Below, in pieces: positions 30,720 to 46,884 of a stretch of 64,000 bases of DNA (position 1 is its first letter; every line of letters begins with the position of its first letter). This DNA comes from Streptomyces griseus subsp. griseus. GTDB lineage: Bacteria > Actinomycetota > Actinomycetes > Streptomycetales > Streptomycetaceae. Under the pieces are notes generated by a model. That model worked only from the letters and a program-made list of their open reading frames with translations. It was not told the origin of the DNA and did not search any database. The stretch covers positions 372,001 to 436,000 of the forward strand of contig NZ_CP032543.1 of NCBI RefSeq assembly GCF_003610995.1, in the 5' to 3' direction. The translations under genes and the position numbers were made by a program.

Positions 30720-31814
30720 TCAGGCGGTTGTGGAGGGCCGCAACCGGTTTCCCTTCCCGTGCAGATGCGGAAAGCGCCATTCGGTGCGGCTGCGCAGGGT
30801 TTCGCCGGGGCGCAGCACGGTGCTGGGGTGGGCGGGGTGGTTGGGTGAGTCGGGCAGGTGCTGGGTCTCCAGGCAGAGCGAGCCGTGGCGTTCGTGGCGG
30901 CGGCCGGTGCCGTCGGTGAACGCGCTGTCGAGTTGGTTGGCGGTGTAGACCTGGAGCCCCGGTTCGGTGGTCCACAGCTCCAGGGTGCGCCGGTCGCCGG
31001 GGGCGGTGAGGCGGGCGGCGCGGCGGAGGGTGCCGGGGGCCGCCTCGCGCAGTACCCAGCAGTGGTCGAAGCCGCCGGCCAGGGCGAGTTGGGGGTGGGG
31101 GCGGGAGAGGGCGTTCCGTATCGGCTGCGCGGTGGTGAGGTCGAAGGGGGTGCCGGTGACCGGGGCCGGCGGGCCTTCGGGGATGGAGCCCGCGTCGACG
31201 GGGAGGTAGTCGTCGGCATCGACCTGGAGGGTGTGGCCGAGGATGTCGTCGGCGCCGAGGTTGAGGTAGGCGTGGTTGGTGAGGTTGACGACGGTGGGCC
31301 GGTCGGTGACGGCCGTGTACTCCAGGGCGAGCGTGCCGGTGGTGTCCAGGGTGTAGGTGGCGGTGACGTCGAGTGCGCCGGGGAAGCCCATGTCGCCGTC
31401 GGGGCTGTGCAGGGTGAGGCGGAGGACGGCGGCGGAGTCCGTTCGGTCGGCGGTGGCCTGCCAGACCTTGGTGTGGAAGCCGTCCGGGCCGCCGTGCAGG
31501 GCGTGGCCCCGGTCGTTGGCGGGGATGTGGTGCGTGGTGCCGTCGAGGGTGAAGCGGCCGTGGGCGATGCGGTTGGCGTACCGGCCGACGATCGCCCCGA
31601 AGTAGGGGTTCTTGTCGGTGTAGTCGTCGAGGGCGGGCAGCGAGCGGACGACCGGGCCGGGGGCGCCGTCGGTGTCCGGCACGGTGAGGCTGTGCAGGAC
31701 ACCGCCGTAGGTGAGGATCCCGGCCCGTACGCCGGTGCCGGAGTCCAGGGTCCAGAGGTCGGTGTCGCTCTTCCCGTGGGCGCGGCCGAACGGTTTGCGG
31801 TGCACGGTGGGCAT
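30720..31814 (-). CDS. galM: aldose 1-epimerase (galactose mutarotase family)
   Basis: 364-residue beta-sandwich mutarotase that interconverts alpha and beta anomers of free aldoses. Catalytic His in NLTNHAYLNL and general-base Glu in CLETQHLPDSPNHP are in place; HALHGGPDGFH gives the other conserved His. No signal peptide, so cytosolic. It is the last gene of the furanose-import operon, 28 bp after the LacI stop; AAGGACTCCTC precedes the ATG. In this setting it would feed imported arabinose or galactose into central metabolism. Confidence 0.9.
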   Translation of the reverse strand: MPTVHRKPFGRAHGKSDTDLWTLDSGTGVRAGILTYGGVLHSLTVPDTDGAPGPVVRSLPALDDYTDKNPYFGAIVGRYANRIAHGRFTLDGTTHHIPANDRGHALHGGPDGFHTKVWQATADRTDSAAVLRLTLHSPDGDMGFPGALDVTATYTLDTTGTLALEYTAVTDRPTVVNLTNHAYLNLGADDILGHTLQVDADDYLPVDAGSIPEGPPAPVTGTPFDLTTAQPIRNALSRPHPQLALAGGFDHCWVLREAAPGTLRRAARLTAPGDRRTLELWTTEPGLQVYTANQLDSAFTDGTGRRHERHGSLCLETQHLPDSPNHPAHPSTVLRPGETLRSRTEWRFPHLHGKGNRLRPSTTA

Positions 31815-31842
31815 GAGGAGTCCTTGGGGGTGCGGACGACGT

Positions 31843-32862
31843 CTAGCGGGAGTGGCGGGGTCCGGTGGATTCGCGGAGGACGAGGCGGTAGCCGGGGCGG
31901 GGCCGCCGGGGTTCGGCGACCGGGGTGCCGGCGAGGCGTTCGACGAGGCTGTCGACGGCGAGCCGGGCGATGGCCGCCTTGTCGGGCGCGATGGTGGTGA
32001 GGGTGGTGGACCCGTACCGGCTCTCCTCGATGTCGTCGAAGCCGACGACGGCGATGTCGCCCGGGATGGTCAGGCCGCGCTCGGTGATGGTGCGCATGGC
32101 GCCGATGGCGATCATGTCGTTGTACGCGAACACGGCGTCGGGCCGCTCGCCCCGGTCGAGGAGCGAGGCCATGGCGGCGGCGCCGTCCTCCCTGCCGTAG
32201 CCGTCGGTGACGACGACGAGGGACTCGTCGGGGGTGATGCCGGAGGCGGCCAGCTCCTCGCGCCAGCCGCGCAACCGGAGGTGGGCGGGCTGGCGTTCCT
32301 GTCCGGTACGGGAGCCGAGGAAGGCGATCCGGCGGTGGCCGTGGGCGATGAGGTGGGCGACGGCCTCCCGGGCGGCGGCCACGTTGTCGATGGCGATGTG
32401 GTCGTACGGGGCCTCGTACTCCCGCTCCCCCAGCAGCACCAGCGGCGCCGTCTCCGTCCGGGCCATCAGGTCCTCGGTCTCCAGGTGGATGGGGCTGAGG
32501 ATGAGTCCGTCGATGACATGGGACCGGAACCCCTGGCTGACCAGCAGCTCCTTCTCGCGCAGACCTCCGGTGTGGTCGACCAGGACCGTGTAGTCGTGCC
32601 GGGCGGCGGCGTCGACGACCTCACCGGCCAGCTCCGCGAAGTACGGGTTGCCGAACTCGGGTACGGCCAGCGCGATGATGCCGGTGCGGCCCTTGCGCAG
32701 ATGGCGGGCGGTGAGGTTCGGCCGGTAGCCGAGCTCGTCGATGGCCTGCTGCACCTTGGCCCGCATCTTGGGGGTGACGTGCTGGTAGTTGTTGACCACG
32801 TTCGACACGGTCTTGATGGACACGCCCGCCCGTTGAGCTACGTCCTTGAGGCTGACGCCCAC
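31843..32862 (-). CDS. LacI-family transcriptional regulator
   Basis: 339-residue repressor with HTH KDVAQRAGVSIKTVSNVVNN, hinge, and a sugar-binding core (GIIALAVPEFGNPYFAELAG ... DAVFAYNDMIAIGAMRTITE). It sits between the second permease and galM on the same strand. It probably senses the imported sugar and represses both the importer operon and the divergent hydrolases through the CAACGTT-centred sites at 37917 and 38108 (inference). Confidence 0.88.
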   Translation of the reverse strand: MGVSLKDVAQRAGVSIKTVSNVVNNYQHVTPKMRAKVQQAIDELGYRPNLTARHLRKGRTGIIALAVPEFGNPYFAELAGEVVDAAARHDYTVLVDHTGGLREKELLVSQGFRSHVIDGLILSPIHLETEDLMARTETAPLVLLGEREYEAPYDHIAIDNVAAAREAVAHLIAHGHRRIAFLGSRTGQERQPAHLRLRGWREELAASGITPDESLVVVTDGYGREDGAAAMASLLDRGERPDAVFAYNDMIAIGAMRTITERGLTIPGDIAVVGFDDIEESRYGSTTLTTIAPDKAAIARLAVDSLVERLAGTPVAEPRRPRPGYRLVLRESTGPRHSR

Positions 32863-32919
32863 GGCACTCCTTGTACTCGGTTCGACTCGTCCCTGCCCGG
32901 TCCGCCTGGTCCGTCCGGT

Positions 32920-33966
32920 TCAGGTGGTTCTCCGGCTGCGCGCGAGGTAACGCTGCGCCACCACGACAACGATAAGGAAGCCGCCGCTGACCACCGATTG
33001 GTACGAGGAGTTGAGCGAGCCGATCTGGTTGATGAGGTTCTGGATCACGGCGAGCAGCAGGACGCCCCAGAGGGTCCCGCTGATCGATCCGGCGCCGCCG
33101 ATGAGGAGCGTGCCGCCGATGACGACGGCGGAGATCGCGTCCAGCTCCATGCCGACGCCGACGATGGTGACGCCGGAGGAGAGGCGGGCGGCGTTCAGCG
33201 CTCCGGCGAGTCCGGCGAGCAGTCCGCTGAGCGTGTAGACGAGGATCTTCGTACGGGCGACGGGCAGGCCCATCAGGGTGGCCGCGTCGCTGCTGCCGCC
33301 GACGGCGAACAGGGTCTGCCCGAACGAGGTCCGCTGGAGCAGCAGTCCGCCGACGCCGAAGAGGACGAGGGCGACGAGGATCGGGTGGCCGAAGCCCCAG
33401 ACGCTGCCCTGGCCGAGTTCGGCGAACGCGGAGTCCTTGGGGACGAGGTAGGTGGTGGCGCCCTCGTCGGTGAAGGCGAGGAGGATGCCGCGCGCCGCGA
33501 GGAGGGAGGCGAGCGTGACGATGAAGGGTGCCATGTTCGCGCGGGCGATGAGGAGGCCGTTGACCAGCCCGATCGCGGAGCAGACCACGAGGGGGACGAG
33601 CAGCGCGGCGAGGAAGCCCCACTGCGAGGCCCAGGCCGCCAGGACTCCCCCGAGGGCGAAGACGGAGCCCACGGAGAGGTCGATGCCACCGGTGATGATG
33701 ACCAGCGTCATGCCGAGGGCGACGATCGCGAGGAACGATGCCTGGACGGTGACGCCCCGGGCATTGTCGACGCTGGCGAAGGTCGGATAGACGAACGAGG
33801 CGATGAGGATCACGGTCAGCAGGACCGCGAGGACGCCTTGCCGCTGGACGAGTTCGCCGATACGGGAGCCGGTGGAGCGCTCGGGCCGGGGCTCGGGGCG
33901 GGAGGGCGTGTTCTTGAGGGGCGCCGGCACCTGGGGGGCCAGGGCGGCGGGGGTGGTGTTCTTCAT
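32920..33966 (-). CDS. sugar ABC transporter permease (YjfF/RbsC family)
   Basis: 348-residue BPD_transp_2 permease with about ten helices; the family landmark GMTLVIITGGIDLSVGSVFALGG is clear (residues ~85-107). It overlaps the preceding permease by 4 bp (ATGA). Together with that protein it forms an asymmetric membrane pair, as in the E. coli ytfQ-ytfR-ytfT-yjfF galactofuranose importer, where YjfF is the last subunit encoded. Confidence 0.9.
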   Translation of the reverse strand: MKNTTPAALAPQVPAPLKNTPSRPEPRPERSTGSRIGELVQRQGVLAVLLTVILIASFVYPTFASVDNARGVTVQASFLAIVALGMTLVIITGGIDLSVGSVFALGGVLAAWASQWGFLAALLVPLVVCSAIGLVNGLLIARANMAPFIVTLASLLAARGILLAFTDEGATTYLVPKDSAFAELGQGSVWGFGHPILVALVLFGVGGLLLQRTSFGQTLFAVGGSSDAATLMGLPVARTKILVYTLSGLLAGLAGALNAARLSSGVTIVGVGMELDAISAVVIGGTLLIGGAGSISGTLWGVLLLAVIQNLINQIGSLNSSYQSVVSGGFLIVVVVAQRYLARSRRTT

Positions 33967-34940
33967 CGGGACCGACGCTCCCGGGCGACGTAGACGGCGG
34001 CGATGATGATGGCCGCCTGGGCGATCTGTGCGGTGGAGTCGGGCAGGTCGTGCTTGACGAGGGTGGCGCGCAGCAGCTGCATCAGCAGGGCGCCCGCGAC
34101 GGTGCCGAGCACCCGGATGGAGCCCCCGTTGAGCGGGGTGCCGCCGACGACGACGGCCGTGATGGCGGAGAGCTCCATGAGGGTGCCGAGCGAGGACGGG
34201 TCGCTGGCGGTGAGCCGGGCGGTGGCGAGGATGCCGGCGAGCGCGGCCATCGTGCCGCAGAGGACGTAGACGCCGATCAGAACGCGTTTGACGGGCAGTC
34301 CGGACAGTCCGGCGGCGGCCCGGTTGCCGCCGATGGCGACGATCTGGCGGCCGAAGGTGGTGCGCTGCACCAGGAACGCGACGGCCAGCGCGAGCACGCC
34401 CGCGATGAGGACGACGAGCGGGATGCCGAGGAAGGAGCCGGTGCCGAGCGCCAGGATGTCGGGGTTGACGATCTGCTTGAGCTGGCCGTCCGCCATCACC
34501 AGGGCCAGGCCCCGGCCGCCGACGAACAGGGCGAGGGTCGCCACGATGGGTTGCAGCCCGACGAGCGAGACGAGCGTCCCGTTGATCGCGCCGACCACCG
34601 CACCGGCGAGCAGCGCGATCAGGAGCGCGGGGACCAGGCCGTAGCCGAGGTAGAGCGGCAGCAGGGCGGCGGCGAGCGCCATGGTGGAGCCGACGGAGAG
34701 ATCGATGCCCTCGGTGCCGATGACCAGGGCCATGCCGAGCGCGACGATGACGATGGGGGCGACCTGGACGAGCTGGGTGCGCAGGTTGTCGGCCGTCATG
34801 AAGTGCTCGGTGAACAGGGCGTTGAAGAGCAGGACGACGGCGACGGCCGCGTACACGCCGTACTCCTGGTACCAGGCGGGGTCGCGCAGCCGGGCCAGTG
34901 GCTTCGCGGGGCGTGGCAGGGTGGCCTGGGGGGTGGTCAT
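33963..34940 (-). CDS. sugar ABC transporter permease (YtfT/RbsC family)
   Basis: 325-residue permease of the same family (GMALVIGTEGIDLSVGSTMA). Its ATG overlaps the ATPase stop (ATGA), and its stop overlaps the next permease. A two-permease arrangement with one double ATPase is characteristic of furanose and some pentose importers. Confidence 0.9.
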   Translation of the reverse strand: MTTPQATLPRPAKPLARLRDPAWYQEYGVYAAVAVVLLFNALFTEHFMTADNLRTQLVQVAPIVIVALGMALVIGTEGIDLSVGSTMALAAALLPLYLGYGLVPALLIALLAGAVVGAINGTLVSLVGLQPIVATLALFVGGRGLALVMADGQLKQIVNPDILALGTGSFLGIPLVVLIAGVLALAVAFLVQRTTFGRQIVAIGGNRAAAGLSGLPVKRVLIGVYVLCGTMAALAGILATARLTASDPSSLGTLMELSAITAVVVGGTPLNGGSIRVLGTVAGALLMQLLRATLVKHDLPDSTAQIAQAAIIIAAVYVARERRSR

Positions 34941-36574
34941 CGGGGGTCCTCCTGGCCGTTCGCCGGGGCTTTCCCGTCGGCGTCGGCCTCGTGGCTGCGG
35001 TCGGCGGGCTCGGCGGCGGGCGTGTGGTCGGCGAGCACTTCGAGGAGGCGGCTCTCCTCCACCTCGTCACCGGCGAGTTCACCGGCGACGGCGCCGCCGC
35101 GCAGCACGACGATGCGGTCGGCGCCCTCGATGAGCTCCTCGATGTCGGAGGAGATCAGCAGCACGGCGAGGCCTTCGCGGGCGAGGTCGTCGATGAGGCT
35201 CTGCACCTCGGCCTTGGCGCCGACGTCGATGCCCCGGGTCGGCTCGTCGAGGAGCAGCACCTTGGGTTCCAGACAGAGCCACCGGGCGAGGAGTACCTTC
35301 TGCTGGTTGCCGCCGGAGAGTTCGCCGACCTTCTGCTCGGGGCTGGAGGCCTTGATCCTCAGCCGCTCCATGAAGATGTCGACGATGCGGTCCTGCTTCT
35401 CGCGGGAGACGATCCCGGCGCGGGAGAGCCGGGGCATCGCGGCGAGCACGATGTTCTCGCGCACGGAGAGCTGGGGGATGATCCCTTCGGCCTTGCGGTC
35501 CTCCGGGAGCATGCTGATGCCCGCGCGGATGGCGGCGGCCGGGGTGGGGCGGCCGATGCGCTTGCCGTCGACGGTGATCTCGCCGCCGTCCAGGGACAGC
35601 GCGCCGGTCAGCGCCTTGGCGGTCTCGCTGCGCCCGGAGCCCAGCAGCCCGCCGAGTCCCAGCACCTCACCTCCGTACAGCTGGAGGGATATGTCGTGCA
35701 GTTGGTGGCGGCGGTCGAGGCCGGTGGCGGTGAGGACGGGGGTGCGGGCCACGTCGTGCCCGGCGGCGTCGAAGCTGGTGAGGCCCTCGCGGCGGACCTC
35801 GGCGAGGTCGCGGCCGAGCATCATCGAGACGAGCCGCATCCGGTCCAGGTCGGCCAGGTCGCCGGTGTGGATGTGGCGGCCGTCGCGCAGGACGGTGACC
35901 CGGTCGCAGATGCGGTAGAGCTCGTCCATGCGGTGGCTGACGTAGAGGACGGCGATGCCCTGGCCGCGCAGGTTCTCGATGACCCGGAAGAGGGTCTCGA
36001 CCTCGCGGGGCTCCAGCGAGGAGGTGGGTTCGTCCATGATGACGACCTGCGCCTGTACGGAGACGGCGCGGGCGAGGGCCACCATCTGCTGGGTGCCGAT
36101 CCCCAGGGTGTGCAGGGGGCGTTTGGGGTCGACGCGGACGCCGAAACCGTCGAGGAGTTCGGTGGTCTCGCGGTTCATCCGGGCGAAGTCGATGAGGCCG
36201 AAACGGTTCTTCGGCTCGCGGCCCAGGAAGATGTTGCGCGCCACGCTCATCAGCGGGACGAGGTTGACCTCCTGGTAGATGGTGGAGATCCCGGCCTGCT
36301 GCGCCTCGAAGGGCCGGGCGAAGCGGACGGGCTCGCCCGCCACCCGTATCTCGCCGTCGTCGCTCTGGTAGACGCCGGTCAGCACCTTGATGAGGGTGGA
36401 CTTGCCAGCCCCGTTCTCGCCGACGAGCGCGTGGGTCTCCCCGGCGCGCAGCGAGAAGGAGACGCCGTCCAGGGCGACGACGCCGGGGAACCGCTTGCTG
36501 ACCGAGCGGGCTTCGAGCACGGGTTCCGCGACGGCGGTCTCCGCGTGCCGGGGTGTCGCTTCGGTGGGTGCCAT
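34937..36574 (-). CDS. sugar ABC transporter ATPase, duplicated (YtfR/RbsA-type)
   Basis: 545-residue protein with two ABC cassettes. Cassette 1: Walker A GENGAGKST (~52-60), signature LGIGTQQMVALARA, Walker B VVIMDEPTSSL. Cassette 2 has a degenerate Walker A (GLLGSGRSETAKAL) but a normal signature LSGGNQQKVLLAR and VLLLDEPTRGID, as in RbsA and YtfR, where only one site hydrolyses ATP well. It follows the binding-protein gene by 86 bp and is coupled to the permeases downstream. Confidence 0.92.
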   Translation of the reverse strand: MAPTEATPRHAETAVAEPVLEARSVSKRFPGVVALDGVSFSLRAGETHALVGENGAGKSTLIKVLTGVYQSDDGEIRVAGEPVRFARPFEAQQAGISTIYQEVNLVPLMSVARNIFLGREPKNRFGLIDFARMNRETTELLDGFGVRVDPKRPLHTLGIGTQQMVALARAVSVQAQVVIMDEPTSSLEPREVETLFRVIENLRGQGIAVLYVSHRMDELYRICDRVTVLRDGRHIHTGDLADLDRMRLVSMMLGRDLAEVRREGLTSFDAAGHDVARTPVLTATGLDRRHQLHDISLQLYGGEVLGLGGLLGSGRSETAKALTGALSLDGGEITVDGKRIGRPTPAAAIRAGISMLPEDRKAEGIIPQLSVRENIVLAAMPRLSRAGIVSREKQDRIVDIFMERLRIKASSPEQKVGELSGGNQQKVLLARWLCLEPKVLLLDEPTRGIDVGAKAEVQSLIDDLAREGLAVLLISSDIEELIEGADRIVVLRGGAVAGELAGDEVEESRLLEVLADHTPAAEPADRSHEADADGKAPANGQEDPR

Positions 36575-36660
36575 GGATCCTGGCCTTCCGGTGTTACGGG
36601 AATGGGGCCGGGCCGCCGTGAGCGCCGGGGGCGTCGCGGCGGCCGGCCGTCCGGTCGGGG

Positions 36661-37746
36661 TCAGTAGGCTCCGCCGAGCGAGTCCTTGGCGTTGGCCTCG
36701 TCGTACTCCCGGTCGGTGATGATGACGTTCTCGGGGATCTCCTCACCGGCGTAGAACTTCTGCGCGGTGGCGAAGGCGAGCGGGCCGAAGCGCGGGTTGG
36801 ACTCGATGACCGCGTTGTACTCGCCGTTGGCCAGGGCCTGGACGGCGTTGCGGGTGCCGTCGACCGAGACGATCTTGACGTCCTTGCCGGGCTTCTTGCC
36901 GGCCGCCTTGATCGCGGTGAGGGCGCCGAGGCCCATCTCGTCGTTCTCGGCGTAGACGGCGGTGATGTCGGGCTTGGACTGGATGAGCTGCTCCATGACC
37001 TGCTGGCCCTTGTCGCGGGCGAACTCGCCGGTCTGCTGGGCGACGATCTCCAGGCCGGGCGCCTCGGCCTTCACCTGGTCGACGAAGCCCTTGGTGCGGT
37101 CGGTGGTGACGTTGTTGCCGGAGGCGCCGAGCAGGATCGCGACCTTGCCCTTGCCGCCGGTCACCTTGATCATCGCATCGGCGGCGCGCTTGCCCTGCTC
37201 CACGAAGTCGGAGCCGAGGAAGGCCACATAGTCCTTGCAGGCGGTGGAGTTCACCTTGCGGTCGATGGTGAGGACCGGCACCTTCTTGGCTGCCGCCGCC
37301 TTCAAGGCGGGCTCCAGACCGTCGGAGTTGAGCGGCGCGACGATGAGGAACTGGGCACCCTGCGACAGCATGTCCTGGATGTCGCTGATCTGCTTGGAGA
37401 GCTGGGACTGCGCGTTGGTGGTGAGGAGCTTCTTCACGCCGATCTTCTTCGCCTCGTCCTTGATGGACTGGGTCTCGGCGATCCGGAACGGGTTGGCCTC
37501 CTTCTCCGACTGGGAGAAGCCGACCACGGCGTTCTTCAGGTCCAGCTTCGGCGCGCCGTAGGTCTCCAGCGAGCAGCCCGAACCGGAGGTGGAGTCGGGG
37601 GACTTGGCTTCCTGGGCACCCTGGCTGCTGTCGCCGCCCGCGTTGTTCGAGGTCTCCGACTTGGCGCAGCCGGCGGCGGCCAGCGTGGCGGTGGCGGCGA
37701 GGAGGCAGGCCACGGCGAGGGTACGGGGTCGACGCTGGATCATCAT
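36661..37746 (-). CDS. sugar-binding lipoprotein (YtfQ-like, furanose importer)
   Basis: 361-residue substrate-binding lipoprotein. The signal ends at lipobox AAGC (Cys ~27), followed by a Ser/Gly linker and the Peripla_BP_4 fold (VVGFSQSEKEANPFRIAETQ, QFLIVAPLNSDGLEPALKAA, VYAENDEMGLGALTAIKAAG). The N-terminal GFSQSE..NPFR..ET segment is like galactofuranose-binding YtfQ. The start is the first of two adjacent ATGs at 37746, with AAGGAG ten bases upstream. First gene of the minus-strand operon, divergent from the GH127 gene. Arabinofuranose or galactofuranose is the expected ligand (inference from neighbours). Confidence 0.9.
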   Translation of the reverse strand: MMIQRRPRTLAVACLLAATATLAAAGCAKSETSNNAGGDSSQGAQEAKSPDSTSGSGCSLETYGAPKLDLKNAVVGFSQSEKEANPFRIAETQSIKDEAKKIGVKKLLTTNAQSQLSKQISDIQDMLSQGAQFLIVAPLNSDGLEPALKAAAAKKVPVLTIDRKVNSTACKDYVAFLGSDFVEQGKRAADAMIKVTGGKGKVAILLGASGNNVTTDRTKGFVDQVKAEAPGLEIVAQQTGEFARDKGQQVMEQLIQSKPDITAVYAENDEMGLGALTAIKAAGKKPGKDVKIVSVDGTRNAVQALANGEYNAVIESNPRFGPLAFATAQKFYAGEEIPENVIITDREYDEANAKDSLGGAY

Positions 37747-37916
37747 GCGCGGAACGCTCCTTGGCGGGTTGACGGCACGCGCGGCGGCGTGCGGTCGGGC
37801 ATGCGGGACGAGGCATGGGCCGCGCGGCGGCTGCTGCCACTGCACTCCTCACGACCCTGCTCCGACGTGCGGGAACAGCGGCCGCGAGAGCCTGCTCGGG
37901 CTGTCGGCGGCTCGGT

Positions 37917-37930
37917 TTACAACGTTATAT
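37917..37930. promoter_or_regulatory. putative LacI operator 1
   Basis: TTACAACGTTATAT, core CAACGTT, with the AT-rich stretch continuing to 37932. It is ~170 bp from the binding-protein start and probably overlaps the importer promoter. It shares the pattern TTNCAACGTT with operator 2. Confidence 0.5.
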
Positions 37931-38107
37931 ATGCGGTGCGGCACGGGCGGCAAGAGTGGGGCCGATGCGTTTCCAAAATGTGTCGGCCACCCGGCGGGGC
38001 GCCCGCGCGGGATACCCACGGCCATCGGCCCGCCCTACGGCAACGGGTCCTGCGCACCCCCTGGACAGCCGCCCGGCACCGTGCTGTCATACCGCCGGAC
38101 GCCATAT

Positions 38108-38121
38108 TTCCAACGTTGCAA
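38108..38121. promoter_or_regulatory. putative LacI operator 2
   Basis: TTCCAACGTTGCAA is palindromic apart from one base pair and centred on CG, as LacI-family sites usually are. It lies 251 bp upstream of the GH127 start and 191 bp from operator 1. Confidence 0.55.
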
Positions 38122-38372
38122 GAACGGATGCCGTACGCCGGACCGCCCGCGCGACGGCGACCTTCGGCGTGTGCTCGCCGCACGTTCGCTCCTCGCGCCC
38201 GACCGGCCGCCCCGCCGCTCCCCCGGCCGGGCGGCCGCGCACCACGCCCCGCGCACCACGCACCGCACGTCTCGCCCTGCACCAGCCCGCGCACCCGCAC
38301 CGCGCGCGGCCACCACCCCCACCGAGCCGGCCGCAGCTCAGGCGGTCCCGGCTCAGAGCAGGAGCCGTACCG

Positions 38373-40817
38373 ATGCCCCTGAACCGCAGGCAGCTCATCA
38401 CCACCGCCGTGGCCACCGCCGTGGCCACCGGTACGGCGAGCCGATGGGCCACCGCCGCGACACCCGAGCGCCACCGGGTGGCAGCGGCCCCCGGCGGCCA
38501 CTACTCCCCCAACGCCGCGCCCCTGCACCCGACCGCGTTCCTCAAGCTGCCGCCGGGCAAGGTGAAGGCGCGCGGCTGGCTGGCCGGTCAACTCCGGCTC
38601 CAGCTGGAGGGGTTGTGCGGCCGGTACGAGGAGTTCTCGCACTTCCTGGACTTCACGGCGACCGGCTGGGTCCGCCCCGACCGTGGCGGCTGGGAGGAAG
38701 TCCCCTACTGGCTCAGGGGGTACGCCGACCTCGCGATCGTCACCGGGGACACGGCCGCGCTGGCCACCACCCGCCGCTGGATGGACGCGATCCTCGCCAC
38801 CGGGCAGAGCGACGGCTTCTTCGGCCCGAAGGCACTGCGGACCTCCCTCAACGGCGGCCCCGACTTCTGGCCGTTCCTGCCGCTGATCCAGGCGCTGCGC
38901 TCCTGGCAGGAGTACAGCGGTGACACCCGGATCATCCCTTTCCTCAGCCGCTTCTTCCGCTATATGGGGGCCCAGGGTCCCGGCGCCTTCGACTCCAGTT
39001 GGATCGCCCTGCGTTGGGGCGACGGCCTGGACAGCGCGATGTGGCTCTACAACCGGACCGGCGACGCCTTCCTCCTGGACCTCGTCGACAAGATCCACCG
39101 CTACGGGGCGGACTGGGGCGACAACCTGGTCAACCCGCACAACGTCAACATCGCCCAAGGCTTCCGTGAACCGGCCCAGTTCGCGCTGCGCAGCGGCTCG
39201 GCCACCGACACCCGCAACACCTACGGCACGTACGCGAAGGCGATGGACGGCTACGGGCAGTTCCCCGGTGGCGGGTTCGCCGGGGACGAGAACGCCCGGC
39301 CCGGTCACGGTGACCCGCGCCAGGGGTTCGAGACGTGCGGGATCGTCGAGTTCATGGCCAGCCACCAGCTGCTCACCCGGATCACCGGGGACCCGCTGTG
39401 GGCGGACCGGTGCGAGGAGCTGGCGTTCAACTCGCTCCCGGCGTCGCTGGACCCATCGGGAAAGGCCGTCCACTACATCACCTGCGCCAACAGCGTGGAC
39501 CTGGACGACGAGCCCAAGCGCGACCGCCAGTTCCAGAACCCGTTCGCGATGCTGGCGTATCTGCCGGGCGTCGACCAGTACCGCTGCTGCCCGCACAACT
39601 ACGGTATGGGGTGGCCCTACTTCACCGAGGAGCTGTGGCTCGCCACTCCGGACGGCGGGCTCGCGGCGGCGATGTACGCGCCGAGCGAGGTGACGGCGAA
39701 GGTCGCGGACGGCACGGAGGTGACGTTCACCGAGGAGACCGGCTACCCCTTCACGGACACGGTCACGCTCGCCCTCACCGCGCCGAAACCGCTGCGCTTC
39801 CCGCTGGTCCTGCGCGTCCCCGCCTGGTGCACGGCCCCCGAGATCCGCGTCAACGGGCAGCGGGTCTCCGCCCCGGCCGGCCCGGCCTTCACCCGGATCG
39901 ACCGCACCTGGGCGAACGGCGACCGGGTCACCCTGCGGCTGCCGCAGCGGACCACCGTACGGACCTGGGCGGAGAACCACGGTTCCGTCAGCGTGGACCA
40001 CGGGCCGCTGACGTACTCGCTCCGGATCGGTGAGCGGTACGACCGGATCGGCGGCAGCGCCACGTTCCCGGAGTACGCGGTCCACGCCACGAGCCCCTGG
40101 AACTACGGCCTCGTCCTGGACCCCACCCGACCCACCGCCGGCCTGAGCCACCGCTCCACGGGCCGAGCCCCCGGCGACAACCCGTTCACCCACTCCGGGA
40201 CCCCGCTCACGATGACCGCCCGCGCCCGTCGCGTCCCGGAGTGGACGGCGGACGACGAACACGTGGTCGCGCCCCTCCAGCCGAGCCCGGCGCGCTCCAC
40301 CGAGCCGGTCGAGGAGGTCACGCTCATCCCGATGGGCGCGGCGCGGCTGCGGATCACGTCCTTCCCGACGGCCGCCCCGGACGCGGAACCATGGCTGGCG
40401 GACCGCTGGTACCGGATCGCCAACCGCCACTCCGGGAAGGTGCTCGGCGTGGACGGGATGTCCACCGCCGACAGCGCCCACGTCGTGCAGTTCGGCGACA
40501 CGGGGACGGCCGACCACCTCTGGCGGCTGGTGGCCAACGGCGACGGCTGGTACCGGATCCGCAACCGGCACTCCGGCAAGGTGCTCGGCGTCGACCTGAT
40601 GTCCACCGCGAACAGCGCGCATGTCGTCCAGTTCGACGACAACGACACCGCCGACCACCTCTGGCAGCTCGTTCCGGACGGGGGCGGCTGGTACCGCGTG
40701 CGCAACCGGAACTCGGACAAGGTGCTCGGCGTGGACGGGATGTCCACCGCCGACAGCGCCCATGTCGTCCAGTACGACGACAACGGAACGGCCGACCATC
40801 TGTGGCGGCTCCTCTGA
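38373..40817 (+). CDS. Tat-exported GH127 beta-L-arabinofuranosidase-family enzyme with RICIN-type lectin tail
   Basis: 814-residue secreted enzyme. The N-terminus MPLNRRQLITTAVATAVATG is a twin-arginine signal. The GH127 (former DUF1680) alpha/alpha barrel spans ~50-660. Residues matching the zinc-thiolate site of HypBA1 are Glu and Cys in GFETCGIVEF (~320, 322) and the Cys pair in YRCCPHN (~405-406), one of which is the nucleophile; Glu in GDENARPG (~306) is the candidate acid/base. The last ~136 residues are three 47-residue beta-trefoil repeats (CBM13-like). AGGAG precedes the ATG. Expected action: removal of beta-L-arabinofuranose from plant glycoprotein or arabinan. Confidence 0.88.
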   Translation: MPLNRRQLITTAVATAVATGTASRWATAATPERHRVAAAPGGHYSPNAAPLHPTAFLKLPPGKVKARGWLAGQLRLQLEGLCGRYEEFSHFLDFTATGWVRPDRGGWEEVPYWLRGYADLAIVTGDTAALATTRRWMDAILATGQSDGFFGPKALRTSLNGGPDFWPFLPLIQALRSWQEYSGDTRIIPFLSRFFRYMGAQGPGAFDSSWIALRWGDGLDSAMWLYNRTGDAFLLDLVDKIHRYGADWGDNLVNPHNVNIAQGFREPAQFALRSGSATDTRNTYGTYAKAMDGYGQFPGGGFAGDENARPGHGDPRQGFETCGIVEFMASHQLLTRITGDPLWADRCEELAFNSLPASLDPSGKAVHYITCANSVDLDDEPKRDRQFQNPFAMLAYLPGVDQYRCCPHNYGMGWPYFTEELWLATPDGGLAAAMYAPSEVTAKVADGTEVTFTEETGYPFTDTVTLALTAPKPLRFPLVLRVPAWCTAPEIRVNGQRVSAPAGPAFTRIDRTWANGDRVTLRLPQRTTVRTWAENHGSVSVDHGPLTYSLRIGERYDRIGGSATFPEYAVHATSPWNYGLVLDPTRPTAGLSHRSTGRAPGDNPFTHSGTPLTMTARARRVPEWTADDEHVVAPLQPSPARSTEPVEEVTLIPMGAARLRITSFPTAAPDAEPWLADRWYRIANRHSGKVLGVDGMSTADSAHVVQFGDTGTADHLWRLVANGDGWYRIRNRHSGKVLGVDLMSTANSAHVVQFDDNDTADHLWQLVPDGGGWYRVRNRNSDKVLGVDGMSTADSAHVVQYDDNGTADHLWRLL
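40407..40814 (+). repeat. three 141-bp tandem repeats encoding the lectin tail
   Basis: Units begin at 40407, 40548 and 40689, exactly 141 bp apart, each coding WYRIxNRHSGKVLGVDxMST and a following Asp-rich half. DNA identity between units is high, suggesting recent internal duplication of a carbohydrate-binding beta-trefoil subdomain. Confidence 0.9.
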
Positions 40818-40867
40818 AACCACCACTCACCCTCCGCCGGTACAACCATGAAAGGGATGTTCAAACC

Positions 40868-43219
40868 ATGCGCCCAGCACCCGCACCCCGCCCCCGCACC
40901 TGGTGGCGGAGATTAACGGCCACCACCGGCCTCCTCGCCCTGGTGGCCACCGCCCTCGTCGGCAGCGGCACCTCCCCGGCGGCTGCCGCGCCCGCCGCCT
41001 GGACGCCGAAGCCGGCGCCCATGACGACGCCGTGGACGAACCAGGTCCCGGTCGACAAGCCGCTGCCGGAGTATCCGCGCCCGCAGCTGACCCGCCCCGA
41101 CTGGACGAACCTCAACGGCATCTGGGACTTCGCGGTCACCGGCCGTGACGCGGGGCAGCCCGCCACGTTCCCGGAGCAGATCCGCGTCCCGTTCGTCGCC
41201 GAGTCGGCGCTCTCCGGCATCCAGCGCCGGATCACCCAGAACGACAAGCTCTGGTACAAGCGGACCTTCACCGTCCCCGCCAACTGGAACAACCGCCGGG
41301 TGAAGCTGCACTTCGGGGCATCCGACTGGCAGACCACGGTCTGGGTCAACGGCACCCAGGTCGGCGCGCACAAGGGCGGCTTCGACTCGTTCGCGTACGA
41401 CATCACACCGCAGCTCAACGGCGGTACGAACACGGTCGTGGTCTCCGTCTACGACCCGAGCCAGACCGGCGGGCAGGCGGTCGGCAAGCAGCGCATCAGC
41501 GATGTGAAGCCGCACCCGGGTGGCGGGATCTTCTACACGGCGGCCTCCGGCATCTGGCAGACGGTCTGGCTGGAACCGGTCGCCTCCGCCCACATCACCC
41601 GTCTCGACATGACGCCGAACCTGGGCAACAACACCCTGCGGGTGCGGGCCCAGACGTCCGGTGCGGCGGGGAGGAGCGCCCGGATCACCGTCTCCAGCGG
41701 CGGTACGGTGGTGGGCTCGGCGACCGGTGCGGTGGGCGGGGAGATCTCCGTACCCGTTCCGAATCCGCGGCTGTGGAGCCCGGAGGACCCGTTCCTGTAC
41801 GACGTGCGGGCCGACCTCCTCGACGGCTCGGCGGTCACCGACACGGTCGGCAGCTACACGGGTATGCGGTCGGTGGGTCTGGCGAAGGTGGACAACATCC
41901 TGCGGCCGGTGCTCAACGGGAAGTTCGTCTTCCAGACCGGCACGCTGGATCAGGGCTACTGGCCGGACGGCATCTACACCGCGCCGAGTGACGAGGCACT
42001 GAGGTACGACCTCCAGGCCCACAAGGACCTGGGGTTCAACATGGTCCGCAAGCACATCAAGGTGGAGCCGCAGCGGTGGTTCTACTGGGCGGACCAGCTG
42101 GGGCTGCTGGTCTGGCAGGACATGCCGTCGATGGACACCGGCAAGGTCCCGGACGGGCCCTCGCGCACCCAGTGGGAGGCGGAGTACCGGGCGATCATCG
42201 ACCAGCACCGCAGCTCGCCCTCGGTGGTCATGTGGGTCAACCAGAACGAGGGCTGGGGCCAGTACGACCAGGCCAGGATCGCCGACGAGGTCAAGGCGCA
42301 GGACCCGTCGCGCCTCGTCAACAACATGAGCGGGGTCAACTGCTGCGGCTCGGTGGACGGCGGCAACGGTGACGTGGTCGACAACCACATCTACGTCGGC
42401 CCGGGCAACACCGCGCCGACCGCGACCCGGGCCGCCGTGCTGGGCGAGTTCGGCGGGCTCGGCTACAAGGTGCCGGGCCACGAGTGGTACCCGGGCGGCG
42501 GGTTCAGCTACGAGGACCAGCCGAGCGTCTCGGCCCTCAACAACCGGTTCGTCGGCCTGCTGGACGCCATCCGGATCGGCCAGCTCCCCGCCGGGCTCTC
42601 TGCGTCGGTCTACACGGAGATCACGGACGTCGAGAACGAGGCGAACGGACTGCTGACCTACGACCGCCAGGTCGTCAAGGTCGACACCGCCCGGGTGAAG
42701 GCCGCCAACCAGGCTCTCATCCAGGCGTCCCGCAACCCCGCTCCCCCGGTGACGCTGCCCACCGGCCAGTACAAGTCCCTGCGGGTCACGACGCCGGGAC
42801 ACACCACCAAGCACCTGCGCCACTACGACTCCCTGGCCTTCACCGAGGTGGTGAACAGCGGGAGTCCGGCCGTGTTGAAGGCGGACGCGACCTGGAAGAT
42901 CGTCACCGGCCTCGCCAACAGCAACTGCTACTCCTTCGAGTCCCGGAACTACCCCGGCGAGTTCCTCCGCCACCGCGAGTTCCGGGTCCGGCGCGACGCC
43001 AACGACAACTCCGCGCTCTTCAAGGCGGACGCGACCTGGTGCGCGGTCGCCGGGAACGGCGGGGTGCGGTTCACCAGCGCCAACCTGCCGGGCAGCTATC
43101 TGCGCCACATCGACTCGGAGGTATGGCTGGCCACCCCGGGCGGCGGACGGGCCTTCGACAGCCCCGCCCTCTTCACCGAGGACACGACGTGGGCGGTGGA
43201 CGCTCCCTGGGCTCCGTGA
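40868..43219 (+). CDS. secreted GH2-family glycosidase with C-terminal CBM42 (AbfB)
   Basis: 783-residue exported enzyme. Signal 1-~40; GH2 sugar-binding domain (~60-220, with VWVNGTQVGAHKGGFDSFAY), Ig-like domain (~230-330), TIM barrel (~335-600) with acid/base Glu in WVNQNEGWGQYD (~461) and nucleophile Glu in VLGEFGGLGY (~526); arabinofuranose-binding beta-trefoil CBM42 from ~632 to the end (HLRHYDSLAF, FLRHREFRVR, YLRHIDSEVW). It is 50 bp after the GH127 gene and probably cotranscribed. The CBM42 ties it to arabinofuranose-decorated polymers; the bond cleaved could be a beta-galactoside or an arabinoside. Confidence 0.87.
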   Translation: MRPAPAPRPRTWWRRLTATTGLLALVATALVGSGTSPAAAAPAAWTPKPAPMTTPWTNQVPVDKPLPEYPRPQLTRPDWTNLNGIWDFAVTGRDAGQPATFPEQIRVPFVAESALSGIQRRITQNDKLWYKRTFTVPANWNNRRVKLHFGASDWQTTVWVNGTQVGAHKGGFDSFAYDITPQLNGGTNTVVVSVYDPSQTGGQAVGKQRISDVKPHPGGGIFYTAASGIWQTVWLEPVASAHITRLDMTPNLGNNTLRVRAQTSGAAGRSARITVSSGGTVVGSATGAVGGEISVPVPNPRLWSPEDPFLYDVRADLLDGSAVTDTVGSYTGMRSVGLAKVDNILRPVLNGKFVFQTGTLDQGYWPDGIYTAPSDEALRYDLQAHKDLGFNMVRKHIKVEPQRWFYWADQLGLLVWQDMPSMDTGKVPDGPSRTQWEAEYRAIIDQHRSSPSVVMWVNQNEGWGQYDQARIADEVKAQDPSRLVNNMSGVNCCGSVDGGNGDVVDNHIYVGPGNTAPTATRAAVLGEFGGLGYKVPGHEWYPGGGFSYEDQPSVSALNNRFVGLLDAIRIGQLPAGLSASVYTEITDVENEANGLLTYDRQVVKVDTARVKAANQALIQASRNPAPPVTLPTGQYKSLRVTTPGHTTKHLRHYDSLAFTEVVNSGSPAVLKADATWKIVTGLANSNCYSFESRNYPGEFLRHREFRVRRDANDNSALFKADATWCAVAGNGGVRFTSANLPGSYLRHIDSEVWLATPGGGRAFDSPALFTEDTTWAVDAPWAP

Positions 43220-43246
43220 TCCCGCGGAGCGGATGAGCGACGACCT

Positions 43247-43295
43247 GGCCGGCCCGGCGGCGACGGGACTTCTCTCCGTCGCCGCCGGGCCGGCC
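43247..43295 (+). terminator. strong hairpin terminator after the GH127-GH2 genes
   Basis: Perfect 20-bp arms 43247-43266 and 43276-43295 with a 9-nt loop, 27 bp after the GH2 stop. Confidence 0.85.
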
Positions 43296-43461
43296 GCTGT
43301 CGTGGGGGGCGAGGGCGGGTTGAGGTGGAGAGCCTCGCCGCCCGGACCGGCACCGGAACGCCCTGATGCCGACGCTCTGATGGCCGCGGACCGGCTCAGT
43401 GAACTCGACGCGCTCGTCGTCGGGCAGCGGTGGTGGCGCCGCACCGGATGATGCCGATCAT

Positions 43462-43505
43462 GGCGGACCGGTCCGCTCCCGTCGTCGGGAGCGGACCGGT
43501 CCGCC
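43462..43505 (-). terminator. strong hairpin terminator after the PA14-GH2-LamG gene
   Basis: Perfect 20-bp arms 43462-43481 and 43486-43505 around a TCGT loop, 5 bp beyond the stop of the minus-strand gene. Unrelated in sequence to the 43247 hairpin. Confidence 0.88.
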
Positions 43506-43510
43506 TCCCG

Positions 43511-46500
43511 CTACGGCTTCAGGCTGCCGTACAGGGCGGTCACCTCGTCGGCGGTCAGGGCCTTGTCGTACACCCCGACCTGATCGACCGAGCCGTTCCA
43601 GAAGTCGCCCTTCGCCCCCGCGTACTGGGCCCGGCCGACGGAGAGCGGGCCGGTGCTCACATCGGCGGGACCGGCCTCGGTGGTGGCGGCGAGCTTTCCG
43701 TCGACGTACAGCTTGGCCTCACCGCCCTGCCGGACGCCGACCAGGTGGTACCACTTCCCGGTCTCCGGTGTGATCTCCAGGCGGGCCCGCTTGCCTCCCG
43801 GGGTGGAGAAGGCGAACGCACCCTGCCCGTACTGGAGGTAGAAGGGGTTCTCGGTGCGCCGGCCGTCCTGGCTGACGACGGTGGCGTAGTTGCCGGGCAG
43901 GGCGTCCAGCGAGGCCCACGCGGAGACCGTGTAGTCCTTGGTGGTGTCCACGACGGGACCGGTGCTCTGCGCGTACTGGCCTTCACCGCTGAACTTCAGT
44001 GCCGAGCCCTTCACCCCCGGCGTCCAGGACGCGCCGCCGGTCAGGGCGAGGTGGGCCTTGTTGGGGCCGCTGTCGCGGGCGGTGGTGCCCTTGTTCTCGT
44101 CCAGCGACCAGGAACCACCGCCCTTCAGCTCGTCACGCTGACCGGCCTTGGCGCCGGCGGCGATGACCTGGCGGTTGATGTCCCGGACCTTCCTCGGGTC
44201 GACCTTGATCTCGCGACGGTCGTACGTCCAGAGCCCGTTGAGCTCGTTCTCCAGGTCGCTGACCTGGGTGTAGACGGAGCCGGACAGTTCGGCACCGGCA
44301 GCCGCGAGGTAGTAGGTACGGGTGTTGTCGACGTATTTCGCGGTGAGGGCGGCCTTGTCGGCAACCCCGCTGTAGATGTTGGCGGGCGCACCCGGCCACA
44401 TGTGCCCCGGCGTCCGGAGCGTGAAGCCGCCGTGCTCGCCGTCCATCGCGGCGCGACGGTCGTCCGGGAAGGCCGGGTCGTCGTTCACGTAGTCGTGGTG
44501 GTCGATGATCTCACCCTTGCCGGAATCGCCCTTGGACGCACAGCAGTTGACCCCACTGTGGGCGTTGACCACACGGGACGGGTCCAGTGCCTTGACCTCC
44601 TCGGCGATCTCACCGGTCGCCGTCCGGTCCCACTCGCCCCAGCCCTCGTTGAAGACGATCCAGCCGCTGATCGAGGGGTAGTTGTGGAACTGCTTCATCA
44701 GCTCCTTGCCCTGCGTGAGGAAGGCGTTCTTGCCGGCGTCGTTGTCGATGTCGGCGTTGACGAAGTCCTGCCACACCAGCAGGCCGAGCCGGTCGGCGTG
44801 GTAGTACCAGCGCGGCGACTCCACCTTGATGTGCTTGCGTACGGCGTTGAAGCCGAGGTCCTTCTGTGCCTTGAGGTCGAAGGTGAGGGCCGCGTCGCTG
44901 GGCTGGGTGTACAGGCCGTCGGGCCAGAAGCCCTGGTCCAGCATGGCGAGGGAGAAGAACGGCTTCCCGTTGAGGACGAGCTTCTGGTAGCCGCCGACCT
45001 CCGCGATCTTCAACTGGCGCATGCCGAAGTAGCTCTCGACGCTGTCCTTGGACCGGCCGTCGGTGAGCGACACGTCGAGGTCGTACAGGTAGGGGTCGTC
45101 CGGCGACCAGAGGCGCGGGTTCTTGAGCTGGAGGCTCAGCTCACGGTTGGCGGGGCCGGTGACCGTGGCGACGGCCTTGCCCTTGTGGTCGCGGGCGACG
45201 GCGGTGATACGGGCACCGGCCGACGCCTTCGCGGAGTTGACGGTGACGGCGAGGCGGCCGGTGTCGATGTCCGGCGTGGTGGTCAGGGAGTCGATGGCGG
45301 CGGGCGCGACCGGCTCCATCCAGACGGTCTGCCAGATGCCGGAGGTCGGGGTGTAGACGATGCCGCCGGGGTTGGTGGACTGCTTGCCCTTGGGCTGGTT
45401 CGGGCCGGTCTTGTCGGTGACGGCGACGACGATCTCCTGAGGGCCGGTGCCCTTGAGCGCGTCGGTGATGTCGGCGCTGAACCCGGTGTACCCGCCGGTG
45501 TGTTCGGCGACCTTGGTGCCGTTGACCCAGACCGTGGACCGGTAGTCGACGGCGTCGAAGTTGAGCTTCAGCCGCTGGTTCTTGCCCGACGTGCCCTTGC
45601 CGACCGACCAGTTCTTCGGCACGGTCACGAGCTTGCGGTAGAACATGTGGTCCTCGTCGCGCTCCAGGCCGGAGAGCTGGGACTCCACCGGGAACGGCAC
45701 GATGATCCGCTCGCCGAGCTTCTTGCCGAAGACCGGCTTCTGGCCCTCGGTGGCCCCGGCGAACTCCCAGGGGCCGTTGAGGTTCTTCCACTTGTCGCGG
45801 ACCTGCTGCGGGCGCGGGTATTCGGGCAGCGGGTTGTTGACGTTCAGCTTGTCGCCCCAGGTGGTGGTGAGGCGGTGCGTGGAGAGGTTCTTGGCCGTCC
45901 GGCCGATCTCCGGGACGGTCTCGCTCCCCGAGGTCAGCCCGCCCTTGCCGTCGTAGACGACCTTGACCCGCTGGTCCTTCAGTACGGGGGCGGCGAGGTC
46001 GATGATCAGTGCGCGGGGGTTGTCCGAGGCGCGGCTCACCGACTTGACCGGCATCGGGGAGGTGTCGACCTCGATCTTGAGGTGGTCCTTCACCTTGCCG
46101 AAGTTCGTGACGCGGTCCTTGAAGGTGGCCTGGAGGCGCTTGCCGCTCTTCGCGACGCTCAGGGCGACGGGGTAGACCTCGAAGCCGGCGGGCGGGGTGA
46201 AGGCGGACTCGGGCACGATCTGCTTCTTGAGCGTGTCGCTCTGCCAGCGCAGGAACATGCTGGCGCCGCCGGTGTCCTGGAACATCTCCAGCTTGAAGTC
46301 GTGCTTCTCGCCCGCCTTCAGGGCGATCGGCGCGCTGTGCTGCTCGTTGTCCCAGTCGGGTTCCCAGTGGTCGATGACAACGTTGCCGTCGAGGGAGAGC
46401 CGGAAGCCGTTGTCGCCGATGGCCGAGAAGGTGTACGAGCCCGTCTCGGGCGCTTCGAGCTGCCCCGTCCACCGGGCGGTGGTGTGCTCGGTCTTACCGG

Positions 46501-46798
46501 TCGCCGACTCGAACGTCCCCGTGAGACCGGGGAAGTTGATGTCCGGGTCCAGGGAGGTGGCCCCGAGCTCGGCGAAGTCACGGGCGCCGGGGGCGGACAT
46601 GCTGAAGTACTCGCCCTTCAGCCCGTGAACATCGGTGACCGGGTCTTCGGCCGTGAACGCGGTGGCGGTGGCCGGTGCCGGGGTGGCGGGCGCGGCGGCG
46701 GCCGTCGGGACAAGAGTGGCGCCGACCGGTATCAGGAGCGCGGCGGCACAGGTGAGAGCCCTGAACAGGGCACGGGGGCGCGGGTGTTGTCGTGTCAA
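43511..46798 (-). CDS. secreted PA14-GH2-LamG glycosidase
   Basis: 1,095-residue exported enzyme. Signal 1-~37 (FRALTCAAALLIPVGATLVP); PA14 carbohydrate-binding domain ~55-196 (LKGEYFSM ... GDNGFRLSLDG); a linker with a small beta-domain; GH2 sugar-binding, Ig-like and barrel domains ~330-870 with acid/base Glu in WIVFNEGWGEWD (~716) and nucleophile Glu in MDGEHGGF (~788); C-terminal LamG/concanavalin-like domain ~920-1092. Start chosen as TTG 46798, with GAGGA seven bases upstream. It shares the YPRPQ...NLNGxWxFA core with the CBM42 GH2 enzyme, so the two are paralogues. Convergent with the furanoside genes and probably part of the same system. Confidence 0.87.
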   Translation of the reverse strand: MTRQHPRPRALFRALTCAAALLIPVGATLVPTAAAAPATPAPATATAFTAEDPVTDVHGLKGEYFSMSAPGARDFAELGATSLDPDINFPGLTGTFESATGKTEHTTARWTGQLEAPETGSYTFSAIGDNGFRLSLDGNVVIDHWEPDWDNEQHSAPIALKAGEKHDFKLEMFQDTGGASMFLRWQSDTLKKQIVPESAFTPPAGFEVYPVALSVAKSGKRLQATFKDRVTNFGKVKDHLKIEVDTSPMPVKSVSRASDNPRALIIDLAAPVLKDQRVKVVYDGKGGLTSGSETVPEIGRTAKNLSTHRLTTTWGDKLNVNNPLPEYPRPQQVRDKWKNLNGPWEFAGATEGQKPVFGKKLGERIIVPFPVESQLSGLERDEDHMFYRKLVTVPKNWSVGKGTSGKNQRLKLNFDAVDYRSTVWVNGTKVAEHTGGYTGFSADITDALKGTGPQEIVVAVTDKTGPNQPKGKQSTNPGGIVYTPTSGIWQTVWMEPVAPAAIDSLTTTPDIDTGRLAVTVNSAKASAGARITAVARDHKGKAVATVTGPANRELSLQLKNPRLWSPDDPYLYDLDVSLTDGRSKDSVESYFGMRQLKIAEVGGYQKLVLNGKPFFSLAMLDQGFWPDGLYTQPSDAALTFDLKAQKDLGFNAVRKHIKVESPRWYYHADRLGLLVWQDFVNADIDNDAGKNAFLTQGKELMKQFHNYPSISGWIVFNEGWGEWDRTATGEIAEEVKALDPSRVVNAHSGVNCCASKGDSGKGEIIDHHDYVNDDPAFPDDRRAAMDGEHGGFTLRTPGHMWPGAPANIYSGVADKAALTAKYVDNTRTYYLAAAGAELSGSVYTQVSDLENELNGLWTYDRREIKVDPRKVRDINRQVIAAGAKAGQRDELKGGGSWSLDENKGTTARDSGPNKAHLALTGGASWTPGVKGSALKFSGEGQYAQSTGPVVDTTKDYTVSAWASLDALPGNYATVVSQDGRRTENPFYLQYGQGAFAFSTPGGKRARLEITPETGKWYHLVGVRQGGEAKLYVDGKLAATTEAGPADVSTGPLSVGRAQYAGAKGDFWNGSVDQVGVYDKALTADEVTALYGSLKP

Positions 46799-46884
46799 GG
46801 CGTCGTCCTCGTTGAAGAGCCGGGAGTACCTCGAACCGCCGAGGCACTGCACATAGTCGAACATTGAGCCACAACACCAAACAC

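Follow-up and report, generated by a model that had tools for sequence, protein, structure and literature searches.

A candidate LacI-controlled locus for galactofuranose scavenging in Streptomyces griseus

A gene cluster of Streptomyces griseus subsp. griseus is proposed here, with a probability of roughly three in four, to be a LacI-controlled locus for the scavenging of galactofuranose (Galf), a rare sugar that abounds on moulds. It lies in a stretch of 64,000 nucleotides (the window) of a single-contig genome, and the proposal draws on gene content, residue conservation, shared and conserved sites, co-occurrence and linkage, and the Leloir genes. Two secreted GH2 exo-beta-D-galactofuranosidases would strip terminal beta-D-Galf from Galf-bearing glycans, with fungal galactomannan as their likely natural target, and a GH127-like zinc-cysteine glycosidase would remove a 1,2-cis furanoside that the GH2 enzymes cannot cut. 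The furanose form is predicted to be taken up by a GafA/YtfQ-like ABC importer. GalM would then help in the conversion of furanose to pyranose, and galT-galE-galK, located elsewhere on the chromosome, would feed the galactose into the Leloir pathway. The original prediction of a dedicated furanose-specific glycan system is thus retained, since the two GH2 proteins, the binding protein and probably the GH127-like protein are of furanose-acting kinds and operator-like sites are shared.

The locus and its GH2 enzymes

Open reading frame and Pfam analysis recovered every gene of the original prediction (importer, LacI, GalM, GH127 and two GH2 enzymes; Table 1), in the arrangement described there, with GH127 and the GH2 carrying CBM42 divergent to the importer and the second GH2, with PA14 and LamG, convergent. 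Translation probably begins at 37746 in the binding protein, at 38373 in the GH127-like protein and at 40868 in GH2 + AbfB; the start codon of GH2 + PA14 is at 46864 or further in.

Table 1. Features of the candidate galactofuranose locus; positions are those of the window unless C1 is given.
Feature	Position	Strand	Basis or remark
Window	C1:372001-436000		Single-contig 7.24 Mb genome, Streptomyces griseus subsp. griseus
GalM-like aldose 1-epimerase	30720..31814	-	PF01263, E 2e-81
LacI-family regulator	31843..32862	-	PF00356, PF13377; predicted binder of the three operators
ABC sugar permease, YjfF position	32920..33966	-	PF02653
ABC sugar permease, YtfT position	33963..34940	-	PF02653
Double ABC ATPase, YtfR-like	34937..36574	-	Pfam and E. 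coli comparison
GafA/YtfQ-like sugar-binding lipoprotein	36661..37746	-	Lipobox Cys27; first open frame up to 37845
GH127-like zinc-cysteine glycosidase with C-terminal ricin-B lectin	38373..40817	+	PF07944, E 1e-28
Secreted GH2 + AbfB/CBM42, ORF1110-type predicted beta-D-galactofuranosidase	40868..43219	+	Pfam and PDB match
Secreted GH2 + PA14 + LamG, predicted beta-D-galactofuranosidase	43511 to about 46864	- (convergent)	Pfam and PDB match
Putative operator 1, TTTACAACGTTATATA	37916..37931	n/a	Precedes importer operon
Putative operator 2, TTTCCAACGTTGCAAG	38107..38122	n/a	Precedes GH127-GH2
Putative operator 3, TTTTCAACGATAGAAA	46909..46924	n/a	Precedes GH2 + PA14

Three other features of the window were recorded. 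An alpha-amylase with two CBM25 stretches and FN3 (27515-30538, +) adjoins GalM; it has a homologue at the equivalent position in many relatives and is probably unrelated to Galf. About 14 kb from the locus lies a large secreted alpha-1,3-glucanase with CatAgl domains and three F5/8-type C domains (12114-16403, -), a possible second fungal cell-wall enzyme. A type III polyketide synthase is found beside a cytochrome P450 (17923-20341, -).

The best PDB match of the GH2 + AbfB protein was 9j6n, 'Beta-D-galactofuranosidase 2', at 1097 bits, with the first unrelated entry at 507 bits, and the identity to this enzyme, ORF1110, was 78.6% over 589 residues. For GH2 + PA14 + LamG the best match was also 9j6n, at 504 bits and 49.3% identity over 552 residues. 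Seventeen of the 18 acidic residues mutated in ORF1110 could be mapped, D336 being set aside for its mismatch with the numbering, and all 17 are identical in GH2 + AbfB and kept in GH2 + PA14 + LamG. In the excerpt of PMC4560423, the D336A mutant of Table 2 misfits the 9j6n numbering and the remaining 17 mutants fit. According to the same excerpt, ORF1110 from Streptomyces sp. JHA19 cleaves pNP-beta-D-Galf, leaves pNP-alpha-L-Araf and the tested pyranosides uncut, frees galactose from A. fumigatus galactomannan and can dispense with its AbfB domain. CBM42 had been taken as an arabinofuranose signal, but the AbfB domain of ORF1110 sits on a Galf-specific enzyme that is negative for Araf-ase activity. 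Two Galf-ase types, AbfB and PA14, have been reported in Actinobacteria (PMC5391426), and the locus holds one GH2 of each architecture. Judging from this homologue, the GH2 enzymes of the window may act as ORF1110 does; their assignment stays provisional because 9J6M, placed in GH2_18, belongs to a group that, in the excerpt of PMC12243196, also contains alpha-L-arabinofuranosidases. A GH2 + AbfB protein 95% identical to that of the window was found in another S. griseus locus.

The importer and the sugar catabolism of the host

Compared with E. coli proteins, the binding protein was nearest to YtfQ (36% identity) and the ATPase to YtfR (46%, 414 bits), followed by AraG at 396 bits. For the permease at the YtfT position RbsC (150 bits) outscored YtfT (128 bits), and the one at the YjfF position gave 157 bits with RbsC, 157 with AraH and 152 with YjfF. 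The order had been called identical to ytfQ-ytfR-ytfT-yjfF; the gene order holds, but only the binding protein and the ATPase are nearest to the furanose system. The binding protein reached 206 of the 510 bits required for the NCBIfam YtfQ family (NF041827). Its nearest solved homologue was GafA of M. smegmatis (209 bits), and with 40% identity to MSMEG_1712, besides the 36% to YtfQ, it falls outside the GafA set as delimited in PMC10191376 (threshold of 45% identity to the queries). From these comparisons the importer is GafA/YtfQ-like and not a YtfQ orthologue, and its cargo is for this reason given as a prediction.

In the pocket, the Trp that covers the sugar ring in GafA is replaced by Phe. 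The pocket Arg of YtfQ is kept where RbsB has Phe, and the site at which a bulky Phe restricts a Shewanella protein to Araf is Glu by alignment. The motif NPFR is intermediate between NPFF of RbsB and SGWR of YtfQ, and in the fold comparison Galf-, Araf- and ribose-binding proteins tie, including ribose-binding 2ioy. Furanose binding has been published for GafA proteins; the known ones also bind L-Araf, YtfQ with an apparently higher affinity than for galactose, the M. smegmatis GafA binds both L-Araf and D-Galf, and many gaf operons adjoin araBAD (PMC10191376). We count against the galactofuranose reading the low identity to YtfQ, the score below the family cut-off, the Phe for Trp, the fold tie, permeases that are no nearer to YtfT and YjfF than to RbsC, and the published L-Araf binding and araBAD linkage of GafA systems (PMC10191376).

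These features raise the question of whether only the hydrolases act on Galf, with the importer serving a different sugar, ribose for instance. The first permease being nearest to RbsC and the second tied with it, the intermediate NPFR motif and the fold tie with 2ioy speak for this. It is nevertheless highly improbable given that a Galf-ase-like GH2 is no farther than 15 kb away for 33 of 37 importers in the genus, that there are two permeases as in GafABCD, that the YtfQ Arg is kept, and that inspection of the annotated genes at the locus revealed no ribokinase.

The catabolic genes of the host bear on the choice between the two furanoses. A search for AraA-type arabinose isomerases with the AraA_N profile, which matched 5 of 14 control genomes, E. 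coli among them, gave no match in this genome. Across 121 Streptomyces genomes AraA was present in 17, namely in 3 of 37 genomes with the importer and in 14 of 84 others, and no association of importer and AraA was found (p 0.27). The genome does contain galK (272 bits) and, beside it, galT (141 bits, cut-off 102) and galE (373 bits, cut-off 262). The original prediction had read the cluster as a dedicated arabinofuranoside-scavenging locus for plant glycans, in line with its PF07944 and AbfB (CBM42) domains and with the frequent linkage of arabinose genes to GafA-type importers (PMC10191376). We now regard this as very doubtful: the nearest characterised GH2 is Galf-specific with a dispensable AbfB, according to the excerpt describing it, the genome lacks AraA, and the Leloir galactose genes are present. 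Arabinofuranose as the main substrate was rejected on the nearest GH2, the missing AraA and the lack of a genus-wide association, and the sugar of the locus is probably galactofuranose rather than arabinofuranose.

Shared sites and recurrence of the locus

A CAACG(T/A)T core is common to three sites, at 37916, 38107 and 46909, which precede the importer, GH127-GH2 and the PA14 GH2, respectively. Allowing up to two mismatches, the pattern gave six matches in the window (three places on both strands) where 0.93 were expected, and 1 of 100 shuffles reached six. With at most one mismatch it occurred at five forward places in the whole genome, three of them in the locus. A control pattern gave two forward and two reverse matches genome-wide, which we count against the galactofuranose reading. 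Operators 1 and 2 were present in 23/23 close relatives each, and operator 3 in 22/22 relatives with GH2 + PA14. Alignment of 25 intergenic sequences identified operator 1 as the best-conserved 16-mer (0.998; mean 0.645), with operator 2 (0.950) fifth among the 16-mers listed. Ten loci with other gene orders were inspected by eye (L035, L036, L038, L042, L044, L054, L057, L061, L062 and L066), and all ten had similar sites before the importer and before GH2 or the LacI/GH2 divergence. The LacI protein of the locus would accordingly be the candidate to bind the three putative operators.

Two of the genomic matches lie elsewhere. The mismatch-free site at C1:7144111 has a second LacI gene on one side and a Gfo/Idh/MocA oxidoreductase on the other (region C1:7138500-7150500, L082), and the site at C1:2069147 (L083), with one mismatch, precedes a protein that combines PA14, DUF7133, CBM35 and 3-keto-disaccharide hydrolase domains. 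Cores resembling CAACGTTG are widespread among LacI-family operators. Both sites were for this reason left out of the LacI target set, and a wider LacI regulon was rejected. A CUT1-type binding protein is encoded near C1:7144111, and a third GH2 (C1:7136003-7137337, 39% to GH2 + AbfB) about 7 kb from it; L082 is perhaps a second sugar locus. In five loci (L007, L008, L010, L014 and L020) the PA14 GH2 has an additional LacI gene upstream, about 46% identical and in two pieces in L014, which is preceded by a palindrome with core GCAACGTTGC.

The arrangement of importer divergent to GH127 recurs in 23 close relatives, the synteny that the original prediction had proposed as a check, and ten further loci have equal gene types in other orders; the arrangement is therefore beyond chance. 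The nearest relatives among the loci found were Streptomyces, for instance S. cyaneofuscatus, with a GH127-like protein 96% identical. No match to GH2 + AbfB was found in four of the 23 (L012, L013, L016 and L020), and one (L021) is a short contig. Besides the order of the window, we observed PA14-GH2 and GH127 with divergent LacI and importer, a row of PA14-GH2, GH127, LacI, GalM and importer, and an order particular to L038.

A scan with the GH127-like protein, from which the best 80 of 588 confirmed stretches were kept, gave flanks with a Galf-ase-like GH2 in 39 loci, a binding protein in 34, both in 32 and neither in 39; in the subset of 59 loci whose flanks each extended 9 kb or more, the counts were 33 for GH2, 28 for the binding protein and 27 for both. 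The 39 of these best 80 without importer or GH2 in the flank count against the galactofuranose reading, as does one locus (L027) with importer and GH127 and no GH2 in its flanks. Nine neighbour proteins of four GH127-only loci (L023, L037, L046 and L049) were scanned, along with a tenth protein from L036, and no carbohydrate catabolism theme was found in the nine, so these neighbours are uninformative on the substrate. In two loci of Ktedonobacteria, L064 and L069, a GH127-like gene of about 59% identity lies some 5-6 kb from permeases of 35-40%, accompanied in L069 by an ATPase (53%) and a binding protein (37%); these could be a distant version of the system.

In the genus sample, whose counts ignore relatedness, GH127 occurred in 27 of 121 genomes, the binding protein in 37 and the Galf-ase-like GH2 in 60. 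A 28th GH127 genome (36% identity) and GH2 matches of 37-44% identity were dropped; at the raw threshold the GH2 count was 61 genomes. Binding protein and GH2 co-occurred in 36/37 genomes (Fisher 1.3e-13, ignoring relatedness), mostly at no more than 15 kb as given above. The corresponding figures were 26/27 for GH127 and GH2 (Fisher 6e-9, ignoring relatedness), with 16/27 at this distance, and 24/27 for GH127 and binding protein (Fisher 5e-13, ignoring relatedness), with 14/27. Since 13 of the 37 importer genomes lack GH127, importer and Galf-ase form the core of the locus and the GH127-like enzyme is an accessory.

The GH127-like enzyme and comparison with known systems

The GH127-like protein has a twin-arginine-like signal (RR, by eye) and the catalytic-domain fold of GH127/GH146 (clan GH-P). 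Aligned with Ara127N, it has the Glu acid/base, the zinc-binding Glu-Cys-Cys and the Cys nucleophile, and E306, E320, C322, C405 and C406 are invariant in 81/81 sequences; one realignment leaves out L032 and L066. Its identity to solved members of the two families is 14-19%, and its sole NCBIfam match was to aceric acid hydrolase, at 73 of 950 bits. The GH127 label given originally thus stands for fold and catalytic residues, but the relationship is remote; this label was also the sole basis of the further reading towards extensins and plants. No claim on pocket size is made from the model because loops 302-321 and 365-405 have pLDDT below 50.

Beta-L-Araf and alpha-D-Galf have a common ring stereochemistry. 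We tentatively suggest that the enzyme is an alpha-D-galactofuranosidase, a possibility consistent with a zinc-cysteine machinery kept in a sequence remote from the beta-L-arabinofuranosidases, and with conserved operators common to its gene, the two predicted beta-D-Galf-ases and the furanose-type importer. Penicillium varians and Talaromyces flavus are among the fungi whose polysaccharides contain alpha- and beta-D-Galf (excerpt of PMC7278926), and the locus would then strip both galactofuranose anomers. No named alpha-D-galactofuranosidase was found among the matches listed in the literature searched. Characterised members of GH127/GH146 are beta-L-arabinofuranosidases. With the catalytic residues kept and the nearest solved binding protein, M. 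smegmatis GafA, taking both L-Araf and D-Galf (PMC10191376), a mixed system may be considered. In such a system Galf would be set free by the GH2 enzymes and beta-L-Araf by the GH127-like enzyme, with plant hydroxyproline-rich proteins as one possible source of the beta-L-Araf, and D-Galf and L-Araf would both enter through the importer. The missing AraA, the lack of an importer-AraA association in the genus and the remote identity to the solved enzymes make this unlikely.

The proposed galactofuranose system is made of known components; no account of the whole assembly turned up among the matches listed in the literature searched, nor was a Streptomyces locus with Galf-ase and importer described in them. 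An excerpt of a review (PMC7278926) calls the exact function of galactofuranosidase and its part in Galf metabolism unclear. The locus supplies a missing context: shared sites and genome linkage connect its predicted Galf-ases with an importer of furanose type, a mutarotase and a regulator, and release, capture and conversion therefore each become separately testable. It also draws attention to GH127-like enzymes that form a uniform group and may act on a substrate other than the textbook one of the family. Galf has been studied as a marker of fungal infection (title of PMC5583699), and the LacI regulator and the binding protein might serve as Galf sensors.

Among known systems, ORF1110 (PDB 9j6m/9j6n, GH2_18) has a catalytic domain 78.6% identical to that of the window protein and an AbfB domain in common with it; it was published as an enzyme, and the excerpt of PMC4560423 mentions no importer or regulator locus. 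ORF0643, the PA14-type Galf-ase of Streptomyces sp. JHA26 (PMC5391426), likened here by domains alone, has PA14 and GH2 in common with the second window protein, which carries LamG in addition. In the importers GafABCD and YtfQRT-YjfF (PMC10191376) the binding protein, the double ATPase and the two permeases follow one another as they do in the window; the window importer differs in its 36-40% identity, in the Phe for the pocket Trp and in its predicted regulation with Galf-ases in place of araBAD. Finally, HypBA1, Ara127N and BT0349 (GH127/GH146, clan GH-P) have the fold and the Glu and Glu-Cys-Cys-Cys residues in common with the window protein, whereas the latter adds a ricin-B lectin, is 14-19% identical to the solved members, and belongs to a type that, among the loci of the best 80 of 588 confirmed stretches, adjoins a Galf-ase-like GH2 in 39.
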